Origin: Microcoleus sp. CSU_2_2
GTDB taxonomy: Bacteria; Cyanobacteriota; Cyanobacteriia; Cyanobacteriales; Microcoleaceae
Reading direction: 5' to 3'
Length of the DNA stretch: 37,011 nt
Assembly (NCBI GenBank): GCA_012035135.1
Contig: JAAUPI010000026.1
Span: forward strand, 1 to 37,011
Shown here: positions 1-16,353 of the stretch, in pieces
Layout: each line of letters opens with the position of its first letter
Numbering within the stretch: the first letter of the stretch is position 1
The notes under the pieces: model-generated
What the model saw: only the letters and a program-made list of their open reading frames with translations
The model's database searches: none
What the model was told of the DNA's origin: nothing
Translations under genes and position numbers: made by a program

Positions 1-37
1 ACACATGAGCAAAAGGGTCAATCCCTAAGAATATCGG

Positions 38-114
38 GAGCTGGATGCACGGAAACGGGCACGTCCAGTTCTAACTGAGAGGTGCTGGGGATAATACCCC
101 ACATCGACTCAAAC
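38..114 (+). ncRNA. Group II intron 3' end (domains V and VI)
   Basis: Positions 38-71 fold as a canonical group II domain V. The outer 8-bp stem pairs 38-45 with 64-71 and carries the catalytic AGC triad at 39-41. A two-base CG bulge lies at 62-63, and an upper stem is capped by a GAAA tetraloop at 52-55. Positions 77-110 form a domain VI-like hairpin with a GGGG/CCCC upper stem (87-90 with 97-100) and an unpaired A near 107. Seven bases further the sequence AC at 113-114 fits the AY 3' splice site. The rest of the intron, including any reverse transcriptase, lies left of the window. The exon that follows is tnpB in frame, so splicing would rebuild that transposon gene. The upper stem has one A-G mismatch. 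The exact 3' splice base (113 or 114) is inferred. Confidence 0.8.
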
Positions 115-476
115 TGATGCGCCGATGTCGAGTGAAGGTTGACGAAAAAACAGGTAGATTTCTGAAAAATGGGCAATCAAGGAAGAGAGGTTTAAACCGT
201 TCTATTTCTGATGCAGGCTGGGGCGAGTTAATACTGAAGATTGAGTATCTGGCTGCGAAGCAAGGAAAAATCGTCATCAAGGTTAATCCCAAATATTCCA
301 GTCAAGAATGTCGCAATTGCGGTCACATCGACAAGTCTAATAGAGATGGCGAAAAGTTCATTTGCAGTGAATGTGGCTACCACGAACACGCTGATATAGG
401 TGCAGCAAAAACTCTTCGTGATCGGGCTGTGAAATTGGTACGCGGGGACTCCGCGAAACCGGGCGTTCGAGCCTAA
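115..476 (+). CDS. tnpB: TnpB C-terminal part (3' exon), IS200/IS605 family
   Basis: This reading frame encodes the C-terminal third of an IS200/IS605-type TnpB, the RNA-guided nuclease ancestral to Cas12. Visible marks are the GLNRSISDAGWGEL block, the VNPKYSSQEC segment, a zinc ribbon made of CRNC and CSEC pairs, and the HADIGAAKTLRDRA block that holds the last RuvC aspartate. The ATG at 117 is not a natural start: TnpB proteins are near 400 residues, and the frame is closed upstream by a stop at 72-74 inside the group II intron. The N-terminal exon must lie left of the intron, outside the window. The residues at the junction (MRRCRVKVDEKTG) match the usual context after the central domain, so no coding sequence seems lost on this side. 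Activity depends on intron splicing. A decayed fragment is the alternative. Confidence 0.88.
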
Positions 477-599
477 ACGCCCAGAAGATATCCTCACACT
501 CAATTGAGCAAACGTGAGGAGTCTGGGAACTCTAGAAATAGGGAAATTGAGGTAGAAATTCCTCAAGAATCCTCGCGCCTTCAGGCCGAGGAGTGTCAA
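477..599 (+). ncRNA. IS200/IS605 right end with probable TnpB omegaRNA scaffold
   Basis: Directly after the tnpB stop there are three nested hairpins. CCAGA 481-485 pairs with TCTGG 522-526 and encloses TCCTCAC 491-497 with GTGAGGA 514-520. TTGAGG 547-552 pairs with CCTCAA 561-566. CCTCG 571-575 with CGAGG 587-591 encloses GCCT/AGGC. The last hairpin followed by AGTGTCAA resembles the right-end structure recognised by the TnpA transposase in this family. In known TnpB systems the guide RNA scaffold is transcribed from the 3' end of tnpB and ends at this point, and the guide comes from flanking DNA. That role here is inferred from position and folding. The exact element end near 599 is also inferred. 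Confidence 0.55.
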
Positions 600-1551: not shown

Positions 1552-1571
1552 GTCAACTGTCAACTGTCAAC
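1552..1571. repeat. Heptanucleotide tandem repeat (GTCAACT)
   Basis: Almost three copies of GTCAACT overlap the last codons and the stop of the minus-strand hybrid kinase (TGA at 1560-1562). The final residues of that protein are therefore encoded by repeat DNA. Confidence 0.85.
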
Positions 1572-4500
1572 GGCTATAGAACCTTTTAATTTGGCTAAAA
1601 CTGCTACGAATCGATCGGGATCGATCGGCTTGGTTAAGTGTTCGTCATAGCCGGCTTCGATCGCTCGATTGCGGTCTTGTTCTGTAGCGTAAGCTGTTAG
1701 GGCTACGGCTGGTAATCGCTTGATCTGCTGTGATTCAGAAGAGCGGATTTTGCGGATTAGCGAATAGCCATCTTCGATCGGCATACCGATATCGCTGACT
1801 AAAATATCGAGCTGCGAATGCTCTAAAATTTCGATCGCCTCCATTGCCGAAGCAGCCGCGATCGCACTTGCCCCGCACCCGGACAGTATCACTGTCAAAA
1901 ACTCGCGGTTGTCGGGTTCGTCGTCTACCACCAAAACTTTTAACCCGCCCAGAAGGTTCGATCTCAAAAGCTCAAATTGCCTTTCCTCTCTCAACTTTAA
2001 CTTCTGACTTTTTGGCTGTTTGAGCGGCAGCGTCACCGTAAAAGTCGCACCTTCGCCTTCACCGGGACTTTCGGCACGCACAGTGCCACCGTGGAGTTCC
2101 ACCAAGTGCCGGACAATTGCCAATCCGAGTCCCAAACCGCCATGAGCTTTTGTAATCGAACCGTCAGCTTGTCGGAAGCGATCGAATACGTAGGGCAGAA
2201 ACTCACGAGAAATACCCTTGCCAGTATCGCTGACTTGAATTTGCAAATGGGTAGATTCTCCATTTCCGCCGATCGCAGACAGCCGCAATGTCACCGTGCC
2301 CCCCGACGGCGTAAACTTAACAGCGTTAGTCAACAGATTCGACACTACCTGCTGCAATCTCGGCCCATCACCCCACATCAATCCCACGTTGGGGTTAAAT
2401 TGGGATTTGACAGTTACAGACTTGGTTTGGGCCATGAAATCGACTGAATTCACGGCCACTTCGATCGCCTTTACGATGTCGAACCAGCCGTTTTTGAGAC
2501 AAAGTTTGCCTTGAATAATCCGCGAAACGTCCAGCAAATCTTCCACTAGCTGCGTTTGCACCCTTGCCTGACGCTCTATCGCTTCCAAAGCCGAGGCTAA
2601 AACCTCTGGGGTGTAATTGCCACGGCGCAACACCTGGGACCAGCCCAGAATTGCATTTAAAGGTGTGCGTAGTTCGTGGGAGAGAGTCGCTAAAAACTCG
2701 TCTTTGAGACGGTTGATCGCTTCAGCTTCAGCCCGCGCCGCCCGTTCGCGATCGAGCAACTGAGCGCGTTCTGCTTCTGCTTGCTTGCGATCGCTGATGT
2801 CGGCGACGATCGACATACAGTTTATATTGCCCTTGCTATCGCGGACAGGAGTTGCCCACAAACCAATGTCGATCGGGCTGCCATCTTTCCTTTGGCGACG
2901 GGTTTCCACTCCGGAGATCGCATTTTTTTCCCGAATCCCTTTCAAGTTAGCTTTGAATTCCTCTTGCTTGTCTGGAGGAATGCTGGGCAGAAACTTGCCG
3001 AGCACCTCTGATTCATTCCAGCCAAAAATCCTCTCGGCGGCTGGGTTCCACATTTTTACCGTAGCGTCGTCGGCGCTAAAAACGGTAATTGCCAGAGGAC
3101 AAGCCTGAATTAAGGCTTCGAGAGTTTGATTGATTTCCGATCGCGCTGCTTCTGCCTGTTTGCGATCGCTAATGTCCATATTCATCCCGATCATCCGCTC
3201 TTTCAAACCTCGATCGTCCTCAAACACAGTAGCCCTACAAGCGATCCAGCGCCAACTCCCGTCAGGGCGACAGATGCGAAACTCCATGTCTAATTCCTCG
3301 CCTGAAGCAGCGGCCGATCGCACCTGCTGTTCGGCAAGGGCGCGATCGTCTGGATGCACCATTGCCACCCAACTTTCATATTTGCCACCAAAACCCCCCA
3401 CAGGTAGCCCGTACAAAGCTTCTAACTCTGGCGTCCACGAGACTCGATTGGTTTGGATGTTCCATTCAAAAGTTCCGATTTTGCCTGCTTGCTGAGCGAT
3501 TTGCAGCCGTTTCTGATTGTTTTTGAGTTCGGCTGCCACCCGCTCGATCTCAGTCAAGTCAATGTAGAATCCCACGATCGTCTCTGGTTCGCGATCGCGC
3601 ACCTCCAAAGTCGTCGCGCCCACCAGAATCGGCACGCGACTGCCGTCTTTGCGAATGTACTCTTTCTTAAAAGGAGTTGCCACTCCCTTAGCCCGCAGTT
3701 CTTGTGCCGCCAGGGCGTCGAGGTGTAAGAGTTCGGGGGGGGTCATTTTATCCCACCGCATGGCTCCAGAGAGTACGTCAGCGCGGGTATAGCCCACCAT
3801 GTTGAGCAGGGCGTCGTTAGCGTAGGCGATCCGACCAGTGAAATCGCCGATCGCGACTCCAAAAATATTGGACTCGAACAGTCGCCGGAATATGAGTTCG
3901 CTTTGCTTTACAGCCCGTTCTGCTTGCTTGCGATCGGTGATTTCAGTGACGACGGTGCTGACGCCTAAAAGCTTGCCCAATTCATCGCACACGGGGTAAA
4001 AACTGACCAGCCAATCTCGAATCACTCCCGGCCGTTGCAGGGTTTCGGCTTGAACTTCTAAGTCTAGTACCGGGGTTTGAGTTGCGAGCACTTGTTGGTA
4101 AATCGGCTCTACTACATCGGCGAGTTCGGGAATCGCTTCTCTGACAGTGCGTCCGATGTGATCTGCGATCGATCGGCCGTTGATCGCAGCGAGGTATTCG
4201 TTCATGCGCACGTAGCGCAAATTGGTATCGACAAAGGACAGCCCGACTGGTGCGGTATTGTAAACTAAGTTCAGTTCTGCTAGTTGGTGGGCGATGCGTG
4301 CTTCGTTTTCTCGGATCTGGTTTTGAGCTTGTTTGCGATCGCTAATATCGAGCACGAAGAACGAGCCTTTCTCCGTGCATCCTTGAAAGTGTGCGCCCCC
4401 GACTAAAACCCAGAATCGCGAACCGTCTTTGCGGATGTATTCTTTTTCAAAAGGCGTGCAATTTCCTTCTATTTGGATTTGAGCGAGGGCTGCGCGATCG

Positions 4501-7073
4501 AGATGTTGGTATTCCGGTGGCGTGAGTTTTAACCAGCACAGGTTTCCCGAAACCACGTCTTCCCTGTTATATCCGATCATATCGAGCAAAGCCTCATTAG
4601 CTTCAGTAACTTCGCCATTTATATCCCAGAAACCGATGCCGATCATGTTGGATTTTACCACGCTGCGGAACCGCTTTTCGCTTTCTTTCAAAGCTATTTC
4701 TGTCTGTTTAGCTGCGGTAATATCTGTGAGAATTATGCCTGCCCCAAGTATTTGTCCGCTGGCATTTTTTACCGGATAGTAGTTACCTACCCAATGTCCG
4801 AAATATCCCGGTTTCCCCTTAGATTCACCGCTAATCTCTACGTTTAAAATTGGCTGACCTGTTTCTAAAACTTGTTGAATTATCGGTGCAAATTGGGCCG
4901 CCGATTCTGGTAGCAGTTGGCAATAATCTTGCCCCAAGTGCTGTTGGGCCGGCAAACCATTTAGTTCTGCTAAGACTTGATTGATGCGAAGGAAACGCAT
5001 TTCGCGATCGAGAAAGCAAATCGCTAAAGGAGAAGCTTCTAGGAGCGAGTCAATTAAAGCAAAGGATTCTGATGTTTGAGCCAGTGCTTGCTGTGCTGCT
5101 GTATAAAGTCTGGCATTGTCCAGGGCGATCGCCACGTGGTAAGCTAAGTCTTCTAACATTGCCATGTCTTCGGAATTGTAGCGGCGATCGGACTTTGAGG
5201 TAAAGCAGCTAATAGCGCCGATTACCCGTCCGCGGGCAATCATCGGCACGCAAGCGTGAGAGCCGATATTGAGCGATCGTAATATTTCTAGTTCTGCTTC
5301 ATTCTGGGCTCCGGCTGCTAGAATTTCTTCATCAACTTCGGCAATTAGTTCAGATTTTCCGCTGCGAATTACTAAGGGATAACTATTTACAAAATTCTCG
5401 TCAAGCGGGTTGCACATCTTCAATTTATTCACAGCATTCACCTTGCCAATTTCTGCGGGAGCGATCGCGACTTTGCGCACATTACCATCGCTTTCTGTTA
5501 AGTGAATGTAGCACCCGTCTGCTACAATTGGCACGGCTAAATCTGCCACTGTTTGCAACACCGTTTCGCCGTCAAAAGCAGCAGCCAGCATTTTACTAAC
5601 TTCTGCTAAAAATGCCGATCGCTGTTGTTCTAATTCTGCTTTTTCCCTGGCTGCTTGTTCGACAATCAACTGAGCTTTTTGGATTTCGGCAACTTTAAGT
5701 TCGGTGATATCTCGTGCTACAACTAAGGCATATTGAATAGCACCTTCTTGGTCAAATTCTGGAACTACGCGAGATTGATATGTTCTGAACCCGCTAGTTG
5801 ATAGCGCTTGAAATTCGATGATTTCTTCCCGACCTGTTTCTAAGACTTTATGCAGAGTTTCGTCCCACTTTTGGCACAGTTCCGGTGGCATTCCTATTTC
5901 TTGACTGGTTTTGCCGATAAAGTACGAAACTGGTTGTCCTTGAGTTTTTCCCACTGCTGGATTGACGTAGACATAACGCAGTTCTTTGTCAATGCGAATA
6001 ATGATATCTGGCGTATTTTCTAGCAACATTCTCAGTTGCTGTTCGCTGCTAGATAAAGCTGCTTGTGCTTGTTGCCGATCCGTGATATCTGTGACTGTGC
6101 CGACGTGTCCGATCAGTTCGCCAGAGTCGGAGAACATTGGCGAAGAACAAACATTAACCCAGCGCACAATTCCCTCTGAGGTTTGCAAGCGATATTCGAT
6201 CGCATATTTGCTACCTTCGGTGGTATAATTCGACCAATTGGCTAATACTCGATCGCGCTCTTCTGGATGAATTATTTGTACCCAACCTGCGTCTAAAATT
6301 TCGTCACCACTCAACTCAAAAATCGCCTGACATCGAGGGTTTGCATAGGTACTGCGCCCCTGAATATCTGCCATGAAAATGCCGACAGGGGAACAGGAAC
6401 TTAAAGAACGAAATTTTTCTTCTTCAGCTTGCAGCGCAGCCTGAGCTACTGTTAATTCGGCTGTGCGCTGTTTGACTCTAGTTTCTAGCTGCTCGTATGA
6501 TAAAGCTAGCGCGATTTCGGCTTGTTGGCGATCGGTAATATCGATGCCAGTTGCGATTACATATTCTACCAAACCTTCGCGATCGTTAATAACTGTATTT
6601 GACCAAGAAATTAAGCGTTTGTCCCCACCTTTTGTCAGCCAATAGTTCTGATACTCACAGGCAAAGTCTTTGGTTTTAAATTTGGTAAAATATGTTTTGA
6701 CTGGCTCGACTTCTTCGGAAATCAAAAATACATCCCAAACGCATTTATTTTCAACTTCAGCAAATGAGTATCCCGTGGTTTTTTCGCAAGCTTGGTTGAA
6801 GCGGACAATCCGACCTTCCCGATCGAGGACTACAATCAAACAGGCCGCTATGTCAATTACTTTTGAAATAATATCTCGTTCGGTTTCTAGTTCTTGTTTT
6901 GTGGACTTTAAACCAGCATACCAAATACTAACCGCAGCAGCAAAAAAAAAGGTTGCAGCAATTGCCTTGAGTGCCAGCAGTAACAGAGTTGTCAGCAACA
7001 GTGCCGTGCCAGCGGTACATTTAAAAATACTGTAAGGTTTAATGGGTAAGGGCAGTAACTGAAACAAACTCAT
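1560..7073 (-). CDS. Hybrid sensor histidine kinase with nine PAS and one GAF domain
   Basis: This 1837-residue sensor should phosphorylate itself on His and pass phosphate to its own receiver. A hydrophobic stretch at about residues 18-55 would anchor it in the membrane with little periplasmic domain. PAS domains follow at about 70-180, 215-330, 340-455, 665-783, 795-910, 925-1045, 1050-1173, 1180-1300 and 1310-1425. A GAF domain sits at about 490-655. The HisKA H-box SHELRTP places the phospho-His at 1466, the HATPase has the DTGKGIS and GGLGLGLAIV boxes, and a receiver ends the protein with phospho-acceptor D1761 in VSDIGMP. The C-terminal half of the PAS array looks tandemly duplicated. 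The ATG is preceded by AGGT at fair spacing. The signal is unknown. No output response regulator gene lies adjacent, so the output partner must be elsewhere. Confidence 0.93.
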   Translation of the reverse strand: MSLFQLLPLPIKPYSIFKCTAGTALLLTTLLLLALKAIAATFFFAAAVSIWYAGLKSTKQELETERDIISKVIDIAACLIVVLDREGRIVRFNQACEKTTGYSFAEVENKCVWDVFLISEEVEPVKTYFTKFKTKDFACEYQNYWLTKGGDKRLISWSNTVINDREGLVEYVIATGIDITDRQQAEIALALSYEQLETRVKQRTAELTVAQAALQAEEEKFRSLSSCSPVGIFMADIQGRSTYANPRCQAIFELSGDEILDAGWVQIIHPEERDRVLANWSNYTTEGSKYAIEYRLQTSEGIVRWVNVCSSPMFSDSGELIGHVGTVTDITDRQQAQAALSSSEQQLRMLLENTPDIIIRIDKELRYVYVNPAVGKTQGQPVSYFIGKTSQEIGMPPELCQKWDETLHKVLETGREEIIEFQALSTSGFRTYQSRVVPEFDQEGAIQYALVVARDITELKVAEIQKAQLIVEQAAREKAELEQQRSAFLAEVSKMLAAAFDGETVLQTVADLAVPIVADGCYIHLTESDGNVRKVAIAPAEIGKVNAVNKLKMCNPLDENFVNSYPLVIRSGKSELIAEVDEEILAAGAQNEAELEILRSLNIGSHACVPMIARGRVIGAISCFTSKSDRRYNSEDMAMLEDLAYHVAIALDNARLYTAAQQALAQTSESFALIDSLLEASPLAICFLDREMRFLRINQVLAELNGLPAQQHLGQDYCQLLPESAAQFAPIIQQVLETGQPILNVEISGESKGKPGYFGHWVGNYYPVKNASGQILGAGIILTDITAAKQTEIALKESEKRFRSVVKSNMIGIGFWDINGEVTEANEALLDMIGYNREDVVSGNLCWLKLTPPEYQHLDRAALAQIQIEGNCTPFEKEYIRKDGSRFWVLVGGAHFQGCTEKGSFFVLDISDRKQAQNQIRENEARIAHQLAELNLVYNTAPVGLSFVDTNLRYVRMNEYLAAINGRSIADHIGRTVREAIPELADVVEPIYQQVLATQTPVLDLEVQAETLQRPGVIRDWLVSFYPVCDELGKLLGVSTVVTEITDRKQAERAVKQSELIFRRLFESNIFGVAIGDFTGRIAYANDALLNMVGYTRADVLSGAMRWDKMTPPELLHLDALAAQELRAKGVATPFKKEYIRKDGSRVPILVGATTLEVRDREPETIVGFYIDLTEIERVAAELKNNQKRLQIAQQAGKIGTFEWNIQTNRVSWTPELEALYGLPVGGFGGKYESWVAMVHPDDRALAEQQVRSAAASGEELDMEFRICRPDGSWRWIACRATVFEDDRGLKERMIGMNMDISDRKQAEAARSEINQTLEALIQACPLAITVFSADDATVKMWNPAAERIFGWNESEVLGKFLPSIPPDKQEEFKANLKGIREKNAISGVETRRQRKDGSPIDIGLWATPVRDSKGNINCMSIVADISDRKQAEAERAQLLDRERAARAEAEAINRLKDEFLATLSHELRTPLNAILGWSQVLRRGNYTPEVLASALEAIERQARVQTQLVEDLLDVSRIIQGKLCLKNGWFDIVKAIEVAVNSVDFMAQTKSVTVKSQFNPNVGLMWGDGPRLQQVVSNLLTNAVKFTPSGGTVTLRLSAIGGNGESTHLQIQVSDTGKGISREFLPYVFDRFRQADGSITKAHGGLGLGLAIVRHLVELHGGTVRAESPGEGEGATFTVTLPLKQPKSQKLKLREERQFELLRSNLLGGLKVLVVDDEPDNREFLTVILSGCGASAIAAASAMEAIEILEHSQLDILVSDIGMPIEDGYSLIRKIRSSESQQIKRLPAVALTAYATEQDRNRAIEAGYDEHLTKPIDPDRFVAVLAKLKGSIAVDS

Positions 7074-13305: not shown

Positions 13306-16300
13306 TTGAAGTCACAAAAAAAAGCAGGGTATTCAAAAGTGGGAAATCATCAATTGGAAAATACAACGATCGACTGTAAATTGGAAAACAAAACGATCGA
13401 CTGCCTGAATGTCGAGGAGGCACTTCACCAAATGGAAGCAAAATATTACAGTATGTTTGAAAATGCTGTATCAGGCATTTTCCAAACAACACATGACGGT
13501 CGCTACATCAGCGCTAACCCAGCTCTGGCTCGCATTTACGGTTATAATTCTCCCGAAGAATTGATGATGAGCCTCACTGACATCAGCGATCAGCTTTACG
13601 TCGATCCCCAGCGGCGCGACGAGTTTGTTTCTGCTTTGCAAGAAGAGGGCATCGTGTCGGATTTTGAGTCGCAGATTTATCGCCGAGACGGAACAATAAT
13701 TTGGATCGCCGAAAATGCGCGGGCTGTCCAGGATGAAGACGGTAAATTGCTTTACTACGAAGGTTTTGTTGAAGATATCACTCAGCGCCAGAAGGCAGAG
13801 TCTGCACTTCGAGAAAGCGAAGAACGCTTGCGTTTGATAATTGAAGGCGTCAAGGATTACGCAATATTCATGTTAGATACTGAGGGCTATGTAGCTAGCT
13901 GGAATTCGGGAGCAGAACGCATTTTGGGATATCGATCGCATGAAATAGTTGGCAAGCAATCTGAGTATTTTTACACGAAGGTAGATATTGAACTCGGCAA
14001 GCCTCAAGAAAAATTAGCGATAGCTACCGCAGAAGATAGATATGAGGATGAAGGCTGGCGGCTTCGCAAGGATGGCTCGCGATTTTGGGCAAACATTATT
14101 GTGACTGCTTTGCGCGACGACAGTGGAGAGTTGCACGGCTTTTCTCAAATCATGCAGGACATTACCGAGCAAAAGCGGGCGGCAGAGGAAAAGATGCGAT
14201 TGATTGCTTCTTTGCAAGAATCGGAAAGGAAGTTTCGCACTTTGTACGAATCGACTACCGATGCGGTAATGCTACTAGATGAAAATGGTTTTTTGGATTG
14301 CAATCCGGCAACGTTAAAGTTATTTGGATGCAGCACTCAATTGGAGTTTTGTGGCAAACATCCTTCGGAATTTAGCCCGCTGCTGCAAGCAAATGGCGAA
14401 GATTCTGTCAGCTTATCTCAAGAGCGAATTAATACGGCTTTGGAATCGGGAAATTGCCGTTTTGACTGGCTCCACTGCCGCTTGAATGGTTCGCAGTTTC
14501 CGGCAGAAGTGCTGCTAACTTCTATGGATGTTGGTGGCAAGATGGGGTTGCAAGCGGTAGTGCGCGACATTACTTATCGAGTACAAGCAGAGGAGGCTTT
14601 GAAGCAGGCTAATGAGGTGTTGGAATGCCGGGTGCAAGAGCGGACAAGTCAGTTAGAACAAGCTATTAAACAGTTGAGTTTGTCGGAAGAAAAGTTTTCT
14701 AAAGCTTTTCGATCGAGTCCCGATCCGATGACGATTACTACTTTTGCTGAAGGGCGATTTATTGAGGTTAATGACAGTTTTTTATCGATGATTGGTTACT
14801 CTAGGACAGAGGTAATCGATCGTACCGTACCGGAATTAAATATTTGGGTAAGGTCGCAAGACAGACTTGATTTTAGGCAAATTCTGCACGAACAAGGTGT
14901 TGTTCGCAATCAAGAATGCGAGTTTCGGATGAATTCGGGATCGGTGGTGGTATGTCTGCTGTCGGCAGAGTTAATTAATTTGGGCGGCGAACTCTGTATG
15001 CTGGGAGTGATGACGGATATTACCGATCGCAAACGAGCTGAAGAAGCCTTGCGGGAAAGTCAGCGGGCTTTAGCAACACTGATGAGCAATTTGCCGGGGA
15101 TGGCTTACCGTTTTCGTAACGATCCCGATCGCAGTATGGAGTTTGTCAGCGAAGGTTCCTATCAGTTAGCCGGCTATTCTCCGGAAGAGTTTATCGCAAC
15201 TCGGAATGTGTCGATAGCCAAGTTGACTCACCCGGACGATCGAGATAATTTATGGAATGCGGTACAAGTTGCTTTGGCAGAAAACCGACCCTATCAGCTT
15301 ACTTACCGAATTACTTCTAAAACAGGAGAATTGAAGTGGGTTTGGGAACAAGGTTTAGGAGTGTTTTCCGACTCTGGAGAGTTGATAGCTTTGGAAGGGT
15401 TGATTACTGATATTTCCGAACAAAAACGTAGCGAGGAAGCTTTACTACGATCGCAAACTGAATTGACCCAACAAAAACTTCAGCTTGAAATAACTTTGCA
15501 GGAATTGCAGCAAACTCAAGCAGTATTAATTCACACCGAAAAAATGTCTACACTCGGTCAAATGGTAGCCGGTGTCGCTCACGAAATTAACAATCCAGTC
15601 AGCAGCGTCTGTGGCAATCTCGTTCACGTCGGTCACTACACAGAAGACTTGCTGAATTTGATTGATATGTATCAGAAACACTGCCCGCAACCCCCGGCAG
15701 AAATTCAAAATACAATTGAGAATATTGAGTTGGATTTTCTATTAGAAGATTTGCCAAAAGCGATGTCTTCGATGCAAGTAGGAGCCGATCGAATTCGGGA
15801 AATAGTACGATCGCTCCGGAATTTTTCGCGCAAGGATGATTCTGAAATGACTAAGGTTAACCTGCACGAAGGAATTGAGGGGACGCTGCTGATTCTGCAA
15901 AGTCGGCTCAAAGGGCGCGCTGGGTATCCGGAAATTACGGTAATTAAGGAGTATGGAAATTTGCCTTTGGTGGAGTGCTATTCAGGTAAAATTAATCAGG
16001 TATTTATGAATTTGATCGGCAATGCGATCGACGCGATCGAGGAAGACAATCAGGGGCGTTCTGTTGCGGAAGCACAAGCTAACCGCAGCAAGATTAAAAT
16101 TAAGACAGAAGTCAAAAACTCGAATGCTGTAGTTAGGATTTATGATAACGGCCCCGGTATGCCAGAAGAAGTGAGTCAGCAGTTGTTCACGGCATTTTTT
16201 ACGACAAAACCAGCCGGTAAAGGTACTGGTTTGGGTCTGTCAATTTCGCACAAAGTTGTGCAAGAACACGGTGGCAAACTAAGTTGTGTTTCTGCACTGG

Positions 16301-16353
16301 GTCACGGAGCAGAGTTTATCATTGAAATCCCGATCGAACAAATTAGTCCGTAA
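13306..16353 (+). CDS. Multi-PAS sensor histidine kinase
   Basis: This soluble-looking sensor kinase of up to 1015 residues has five PAS/PAC units at about residues 45-165, 170-290, 300-425, 465-585 and 590-705, each closed by a DIT-type linker. A coiled-coil linker (about 705-745) precedes a HisKA-type segment with phospho-His 759 in VAHEINNP, and a HATPase with NAIDAI, DNGPGMP and GTGLGLSISHKVV boxes. The NNP form of the H-box and the missing receiver separate it from the hybrid kinase at 1560-7073. No transmembrane segment is visible. The start is uncertain: TTG at 13306 has a GAAGG upstream, GTG at 13339 is in frame, and the first ATG is at 13432. No response regulator gene is adjacent. 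Confidence 0.92.
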   Translation: MKSQKKAGYSKVGNHQLENTTIDCKLENKTIDCLNVEEALHQMEAKYYSMFENAVSGIFQTTHDGRYISANPALARIYGYNSPEELMMSLTDISDQLYVDPQRRDEFVSALQEEGIVSDFESQIYRRDGTIIWIAENARAVQDEDGKLLYYEGFVEDITQRQKAESALRESEERLRLIIEGVKDYAIFMLDTEGYVASWNSGAERILGYRSHEIVGKQSEYFYTKVDIELGKPQEKLAIATAEDRYEDEGWRLRKDGSRFWANIIVTALRDDSGELHGFSQIMQDITEQKRAAEEKMRLIASLQESERKFRTLYESTTDAVMLLDENGFLDCNPATLKLFGCSTQLEFCGKHPSEFSPLLQANGEDSVSLSQERINTALESGNCRFDWLHCRLNGSQFPAEVLLTSMDVGGKMGLQAVVRDITYRVQAEEALKQANEVLECRVQERTSQLEQAIKQLSLSEEKFSKAFRSSPDPMTITTFAEGRFIEVNDSFLSMIGYSRTEVIDRTVPELNIWVRSQDRLDFRQILHEQGVVRNQECEFRMNSGSVVVCLLSAELINLGGELCMLGVMTDITDRKRAEEALRESQRALATLMSNLPGMAYRFRNDPDRSMEFVSEGSYQLAGYSPEEFIATRNVSIAKLTHPDDRDNLWNAVQVALAENRPYQLTYRITSKTGELKWVWEQGLGVFSDSGELIALEGLITDISEQKRSEEALLRSQTELTQQKLQLEITLQELQQTQAVLIHTEKMSTLGQMVAGVAHEINNPVSSVCGNLVHVGHYTEDLLNLIDMYQKHCPQPPAEIQNTIENIELDFLLEDLPKAMSSMQVGADRIREIVRSLRNFSRKDDSEMTKVNLHEGIEGTLLILQSRLKGRAGYPEITVIKEYGNLPLVECYSGKINQVFMNLIGNAIDAIEEDNQGRSVAEAQANRSKIKIKTEVKNSNAVVRIYDNGPGMPEEVSQQLFTAFFTTKPAGKGTGLGLSISHKVVQEHGGKLSCVSALGHGAEFIIEIPIEQISP

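Follow-up and report, generated by a model that had tools for sequence, protein, structure and literature searches.

The stretch analysed here (the window, 37,011 nucleotides; G000:C163:1-37011 in our numbering of genomes and contigs) comes from Microcoleus sp. CSU_2_2. At its left edge, the 3′ end of a group II intron runs directly into the C-terminal part of tnpB, a gene for an RNA-guided nuclease carried by an insertion sequence (IS) of the IS200/IS605 type (Table 1). The contig starts at base 1, which already lies inside the intron. The sequence-only reading had set the feature at 38-476; its identity as intron plus tnpB stands, and its start has to be moved, since the intron extends to the contig edge. 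The octapeptide at window 2-28 corresponds to HMSKRVTP, the C-terminus of a 553-aa reverse transcriptase (RT)/maturase encoded by a whole intron copy in a relative (G014:C412, hereafter the sister). The RF00029 match (E 1.7e-7) is the sole Rfam match at gathering level across the window, and it covers the full model, in agreement with the domain V and domain VI proposed earlier; the AGC triad (39-41), the GAAA loop (52-55) and the AAAC terminus (111-114) can be read from the sequence. A group I intron core, the mark of an IStron, gave no Rfam match at gathering level in the window, where the intron is visible only from base 1.

In the 3′ exon, the first whole codon of tnpB is 117-119 and the stop is 474-476. 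The frame 117-476 encodes 119 aa from its first ATG and carries the TNB domain. In a DNA search of 61 genomes from the family of Microcoleus, of which 37 gave any match, the tnpB homologues begin at base 115. The exon start (at most 7 edits) is contained in 13 of 41 loci, all in other genomes (L008-L015, L017-L019, L021 and L022), and all 13 run without intron across 114/115, reading Asn-(Ile/Val)-Ser-Gly^Met (^ marks the insertion point throughout). Thus, the last intron base is 114, and the intron splits the Met codon. The best intron-free homologues are 95-96% identical to the window over 115-476. The earlier claims that the C-terminal part of TnpB follows the intron directly and in frame, and that the junction residues are normal for TnpB, are borne out, Ser-Gly-Met being present in 13/13 intron-free loci. 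The N-terminal and RuvC-I/II part of TnpB is found in the intron-free homologues and in sister copies; the window contig starts downstream of it.

Table 1. Features at the left end of the window
Feature	Position	Strand	Evidence
Group II intron 3′ end	1..114	+	98% identity to G014:C412 intron end over 114-116 nt; RF00029
Last 8 codons and stop of intron-encoded protein (HMSKRVNP, stop)	2..28	+	Frame-2 translation
Domain V and domain VI, ending AAAC	36..114	+	RF00029, 51.8 bits, model 1-77 of 77
tnpB 3′ exon, TNB zinc-finger part	115..476	+	PF07282 E 9.9e-21; 13 intron-free homologues; 96% to G016:C65
Hairpin, probably right end of IS200/IS605-type element	570..592	+	DNA fold of 545-605, -12.2 kcal/mol, z -3.66

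Complete copies of the intron in related genomes

The intron end in the window is 98% identical to that of the sister over 116 nt and 99% identical to that of G014:C375 over 80 nt. Both of these introns are followed by other tnpB genes, and both sit at a codon identical to the window's. The sister corresponds to public contig PVWI01000052.1 ('Filamentous cyanobacterium Phorm 6', 100% match). Its intron is whole, 2219 nt from a GUGCG start to an AC end, and its 553-aa protein has RVT_N, RVT_1 and GIIM domains. The 5′ exon ends in ..IILEDLNVSG and the 3′ exon gives MVKNRKLSR, which when joined read ..LEDLNVSG^MVKNR... In G019:C262, an open 311-aa frame, from MKARYQFRFYPT.. to ..VLEDLNVSG, is joined to the start of the same intron, which is 93% identical over 129 nt, up to the end of the stretch analysed. 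Joined exons match the TnpB profile across the junction, for example at profile positions 1-357 in G035:C159 and 1-362 in Calothrix (L106). The intron 5′ end, RT and tnpB 5′ exon that the sequence-only reading expected to the left are therefore present in the sister, with an open 5′ exon in G019:C262. Its claim of an intron within tnpB holds for these relatives, which have tnpB upstream and not an unrelated flank; the window's own upstream flank lies beyond the contig edge. Separately, a decayed tnpB contains an insert of 4962 nt (G026:C166:31071-36032), which exceeds the other measured introns in length and may hold a second element.

Movement and targeting of the introns

Genome G013 carries five copies of a 2375-nt intron with 100% identity to one another, at sites reading ..FVR^N.. 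or ..FIR^N..; on their 3′ side, the first 870 nt of the tnpB exons are 57.8-92.2% identical. A second set in this genome, four introns with lengths of 2488-2489 nt, likewise shows 100% identity, at ..VVWN^D.. in tnpB exons of 63.4-100% identity. Furthermore, IscB genes of 68.3% identity share an intron of 2401 nt, at ..PFT(I/L)I^LK.., whose last 2380 nt are 98.7% identical. At a second IscB site, ..EYLLN^KW.., the intron end occurs in G037 and twice in G011, with exons 66-70% identical (two pairs); the 5′ half of this intron was observed in G037 only. Since identical introns lie in diverged host genes, movement of the intron between genes is needed. Homing is implied, and retrohoming to a homologous site would be expected to leave such a pattern. 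The IscB reading frames are thus split at two fixed codon positions (G013:C2:103613, G013:C1:613950 and G014:C261; G037:C1:5037713, G011:C131 and G011:C189), and the intron at the first of these begins with GCGCG instead of GUGYG.

Nineteen introns of the window's lineage whose 5′ end is known were compared for pairing between the exon-binding site 1 (EBS1) of the intron and the intron-binding site 1 (IBS1), the final six bases of the 5′ exon; 16 of the 19 pair at 6/6 positions. This set leaves out L314 (298 nt, too short) and L297 (~130 nt). The mean pairing is 5.53, as compared with 2.51 for the exons of other copies, and 0/10000 permutations reach 5.53. An earlier set of 13 introns, which omitted two unaligned introns and five with a known 5′ end, gave 5.92 and 2.40, respectively. 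The EBS1 register was set by eye on L289 and L286, and the mean is still 5.53 when both are removed (17 introns). The EBS1 of the sister is fully complementary to Ser-Gly-Met when written as TCC GGA A^TG, its sole mismatch being the third base of the Gly codon; for the homologues of the window, a 5/6 match with the mismatch likewise at that base is expected. EBS2-IBS2 pairing was noticed by eye only. The EBS/IBS pairing that the sequence-only reading wanted checked is thus present in relatives, although the sister at the window's own site falls one base short and the window's EBS lies outside the contig.

Survey of intron ends in the genus

RF00029 has 168 matches in 29 congeneric genomes, and the 3′ flanks of all 150 listed matches were examined. 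Exons were scanned on both strands with profiles for TnpB (99 sequences), IscB (8 seeds, one of which has PF14239 RRXRR plus HNH) and HEARO, the last of which we take to be the IscB guide RNA. Sense-strand OMEGA parts (a TnpB or IscB open reading frame or a HEARO RNA) adjoin 24/150 of the listed ends by a strict count (15 TnpB, 6 IscB and 3 HEARO) and 28/150 by a loose one. In the strict cases, the distance to the 3′ junction is within 19 nt for 14 TnpB frames by profile, with the window placed by alignment, at most 7 nt for IscB and at most 4 nt for HEARO. The loose cases are G015:C607, where the TnpB N-terminus stands at the junction in a different frame and the profile match starts at nt 44; G020:C26, with HEARO from nt 43 and an alignment from the DNA search that places the intron end beside HEARO; and G037:C1:2075063 and G015:C591, where HEARO is confined to the 5′ side. 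In antisense, one intron end adjoins HEARO (G020:C14:45-122, from nt 10) and one has TnpB 67-70 nt away (G014:C506), which makes the ratio of sense to antisense 28:1, or 28:2 if the latter is counted.

The TnpB profile was iterated on the reading frames of all loci on hand, the tested loci included. With the 35-sequence seed profile, the 16/16 counted loci and G017:C2 match in sense at no more than 76 nt, only 6 of them within 19 nt, and a single locus matches in antisense within 100 nt (G014:C506, 67 nt). An initial screen with a zinc-finger regular expression, superseded by the profiles, had found TnpB in only 4/150 of the 3′ exons, because many insertions are N-terminal. Where the IscB profile matched some 100-400 nt before an intron end, the match was read as the HNH domain of the intron protein and left out of the count. 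Also left out was G017:C2:37623, with TnpB starting at nt 41, which is probably the single TNB match among the other exons. G014:C375, its domain V being truncated by a contig end, is not among the 150, and an antisense HEARO about 3 kb upstream of the intron 3′ end in G017:C165 is uncounted, since the start of that intron is unknown.

The 29 genomes hold 1393 TNB and 411 HEARO matches in 188.6 Mb. Uniform insertion would give, per 150 ends, 0.64 in sense tnpB, 0.04 in HEARO and 0.21 in iscB, assuming targets of 1.15, 0.22 and 1.3 kb, respectively, and one iscB per HEARO, as compared with the 16 tnpB and 6 HEARO cases seen; such a null is weak, since selection removes introns from essential genes. 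Copies of an intron are not independent. When each intron type and site is taken once, about 16 sense cases stand against 1 antisense case (p 3e-4, the second antisense case left out). The remaining 122 exons offer a better comparison: an open frame of 35 aa is absent from 51 of them, and the other 71 include 10 RT and 10 maturase domains, which are nested introns. No DDE transposase appears in these 71 distinct frames (25 of 37 Pfam families listed), and one TNB domain does.

As a control, the 3′ flanks of 60 introns were taken from two further genera of the family (five genomes), and adjoining TnpB, IscB or HEARO was found in 0/60 (28/150 vs 0/60, p 6e-5); these 60 ranked high among the matches listed, and the OMEGA genes of the control genomes were left uncounted. 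Two weak TnpB matches in the control flanks lie 576 nt away. Outside the genus, the best 80 of 306 loci with a protein related to that of the sister were considered; a 3′ end could be read at 79, and 4/79 adjoin TnpB, namely the sister itself, Nostoc JL33 (L079), Calothrix MO_192.B10 (L106) and, more weakly, Richelia SL_2_1 (L083). Thus, OMEGA-adjoining introns are a strong feature of the window's genus and not a universal one.

Intron halves in the window's own genome

The genome of the window holds two intron 5′ halves, C61 and C253, which are 91% identical to the sister. Their exons match HEARO positions 1-120, and a 3′ half, C136, resumes HEARO at 119-120. With RF02033, whose gathering score is 83, uninterrupted HEARO reaches 133-134 bits in two relatives, against 56 bits for the split part in C136 and 47 bits for that in C253, both below the gathering score. 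C61 and C253 were considered as the missing half of the window's copy and rejected, their exons being HEARO that continues into the C136 exon in uninterrupted relatives. Introns inside HEARO were thus seen at the end of G000:C61 and the starts of C253 and C136 (L286, L287 and L052), and also in G023:C7, G020:C26 and G015:C615. Two other contigs, C58 and C309, of the window's IS family, carry a tnpB start that is 84-87% identical to its nearest homologues (best L008, 86.8%), as compared with 96% for the window's 3′ exon; they are candidates for the missing 5′ exon. Two pairs of contig ends overlap by exactly 127 bases, which suggests that an assembler with k = 127 broke the repeats.

Neighbouring sequence

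Homology to the intron-free element L008 extends to base 603. Judged by what holds for its family, the hairpin in Table 1 is probably the right end of the IS200/IS605-type element. Just outside this right end, at 604-685, two near-identical units of about 45 nt (..GTTGACAGCCGTCACTGAGCTTGTCGAAGT..) were noticed by eye. Farther on, a 179-aa protein (815-1354, +) has no Pfam match; by eye, its N-terminal part resembles a GIY-YIG nuclease domain. Large proteins with many PAS and histidine kinase domains are encoded at 1560-7073 (-, 1837 aa) and 13306-16353 (+, 1015 aa).

Discussion

We are confident that a mobile group II intron retrohomed into tnpB of an IS200/IS605-type element. The RT/maturase-bearing intron would have entered inside the Met codon that follows the motif ..LN(I/V)SG^M, presumably RuvC-II. 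Its EBS1 would recognise six bases at the end of the 5′ exon that lie in the codons of this conserved motif, and therefore one intron could enter many tnpB genes. Without splicing, the TnpB frame would run only a few residues into the intron and end short of the zinc finger; splicing would restore the frame. From this anatomy, active TnpB should require splicing; splicing in vivo, entry by reverse splicing and retrohoming, and an effect on TnpB activity are what the sequences predict. The guide RNA of TnpB is expected at the right end of the element. Since this end falls with the 3′ exon and the intron does not interrupt it, only the TnpB protein should depend on splicing. In the HEARO insertions, the RNA, rather than a protein, would do so.

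Several observations weigh against this interpretation. The 5′ exon, 5′ splice site and EBS of the window's intron copy lie outside the contig, its 5′ half was not found in its own genome (357 contigs, 84% complete), and the intron 5′ halves that this genome does hold sit in HEARO RNAs rather than in tnpB. The 5′ exon of the sister is truncated, matching TnpB only from profile position 212, and the sister, a tnpB copy at the window's site, pairs its EBS1 at 5/6. Two of the 19 introns pair at 2/6, their EBS region being unaligned. Some hosts are decayed, with frame damage in G026:C166 and a stop in the exon of G013:C1:7294134. A contig that starts inside the intron, in so fragmented a genome that lacks the tnpB 5′ half, might suggest that two relics, or an assembly join, brought an intron end against a tnpB fragment by chance. 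However, the junction is base-exact at 114/115 with respect to 13 intron-free alleles, on which ground a chance junction was rejected for the window, it keeps the frame, and two other genomes carry a matching intron at the identical codon with tnpB on the 5′ side. We therefore regard such a join as exceedingly improbable. Passive spread of the intron by its IS, as a composite moving in the manner of an IStron, is only slightly less remote. Two G013 copies (2333491 and 5314279) are identical in intron and exon, as if carried by the IS; otherwise, both G013 sets combine introns of 100% identity with host exons that differ by 8-42%, the IscB intron is far better conserved than its host genes, and EBS1 fits each target in the tested lineage.

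Beyond the single insertion, we tentatively propose, at somewhat less than even chance, that in the window's genus several intron types are specialised on OMEGA systems through the codons of TnpB/IscB motifs and the conserved bases of HEARO. The nuclease or its guide would then be active only after splicing, and the parasites would mutually control their spread. A less probable, though still appreciable, alternative to specialisation is that tnpB and iscB are simply abundant, dispensable DNA in which introns accumulate where they do no harm. The large number of OMEGA genes in the 29 genomes, the scarcity of TnpB neighbours outside the genus (4/79 and 0/60) and the statement, in the part of PMC8919778 available to us, that group II introns often nest in intergenic regions or other mobile elements all agree with it. 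Against it stand the excess over uniform insertion, weak as that null is, the bias toward sense, the lack of DDE transposase among the 71 frames of the other exons and the recurrence of sites at identical codons in divergent genes. It is unlikely that selection, on either the host or the IS, has retained the intron as a beneficial brake on TnpB. An insertion right after the RuvC-II motif does truncate the nuclease unless spliced, and such control was suggested for ISRm2011-2 by the authors who studied RmInt1, in the accessible text of PMC4238363. In contrast, the G013 insertions look recent (100% identity), several host genes have decayed, and a selected brake and a tolerated parasite look alike in these data.

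If homing of this kind is routine, the expression of a nuclease in nature can hinge on splicing, and the supply of guide RNA and of protein would be uncoupled. TnpB and IscB are the probable ancestral relatives of Cas12 and Cas9. Within a single genome, the identical introns that lie in diverged tnpB genes form a natural set for asking how EBS retargeting tracks conserved protein motifs and whether an RNA-guided nuclease can be restrained by an intron, and one selfish element may control another.

In the available parts of the open-licence PMC literature (including PMC8919778, PMC7923331, PMC4853749 and PMC9581776), no description of group II introns in tnpB, iscB or HEARO was found. The nearest precedent is RmInt1 of Sinorhizobium meliloti, a group II intron inside the transposase gene of ISRm2011-2, where, as far as the accessible text goes, the protein needs splicing and the intron was proposed to limit the IS (PMC4238363). 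The description of one mobile element gating another as rare is thus fair, but 'never described' would be wrong. The two systems are alike in that a mobile group II intron interrupts an IS protein gene in frame, which here follows from the intron-free alleles and the joined exons of the sister. The host gene of RmInt1, however, is a transposase required for movement of the IS, whereas our hosts are RNA-guided nuclease genes and the associated RNA, entered by several intron types at several sites.

The intron of the sister shares its class with other cyanobacterial RT/maturase introns, whose proteins are, among the best 80 of 306, up to 78% identical in Nostoc and occur also in Dolichospermum and Anabaena; unlike it, all but three of the other readable loci in that set have no TnpB adjoining. 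As in OMEGA systems of the IS200/IS605 type, the TnpB described here has the TNB domain and, in the joined exons of relatives, near-full-length profile matches, but its gene is split by an intron after the RuvC-II motif. IStrons combine a self-splicing group I intron with an IS605-type element, as the accessible part of PMC4227781 describes them, and owe their mobility to the IS. In contrast, the ribozyme in our study belongs to group II, encodes an RT of its own and lies inside tnpB, and it appears to move between genes by itself.
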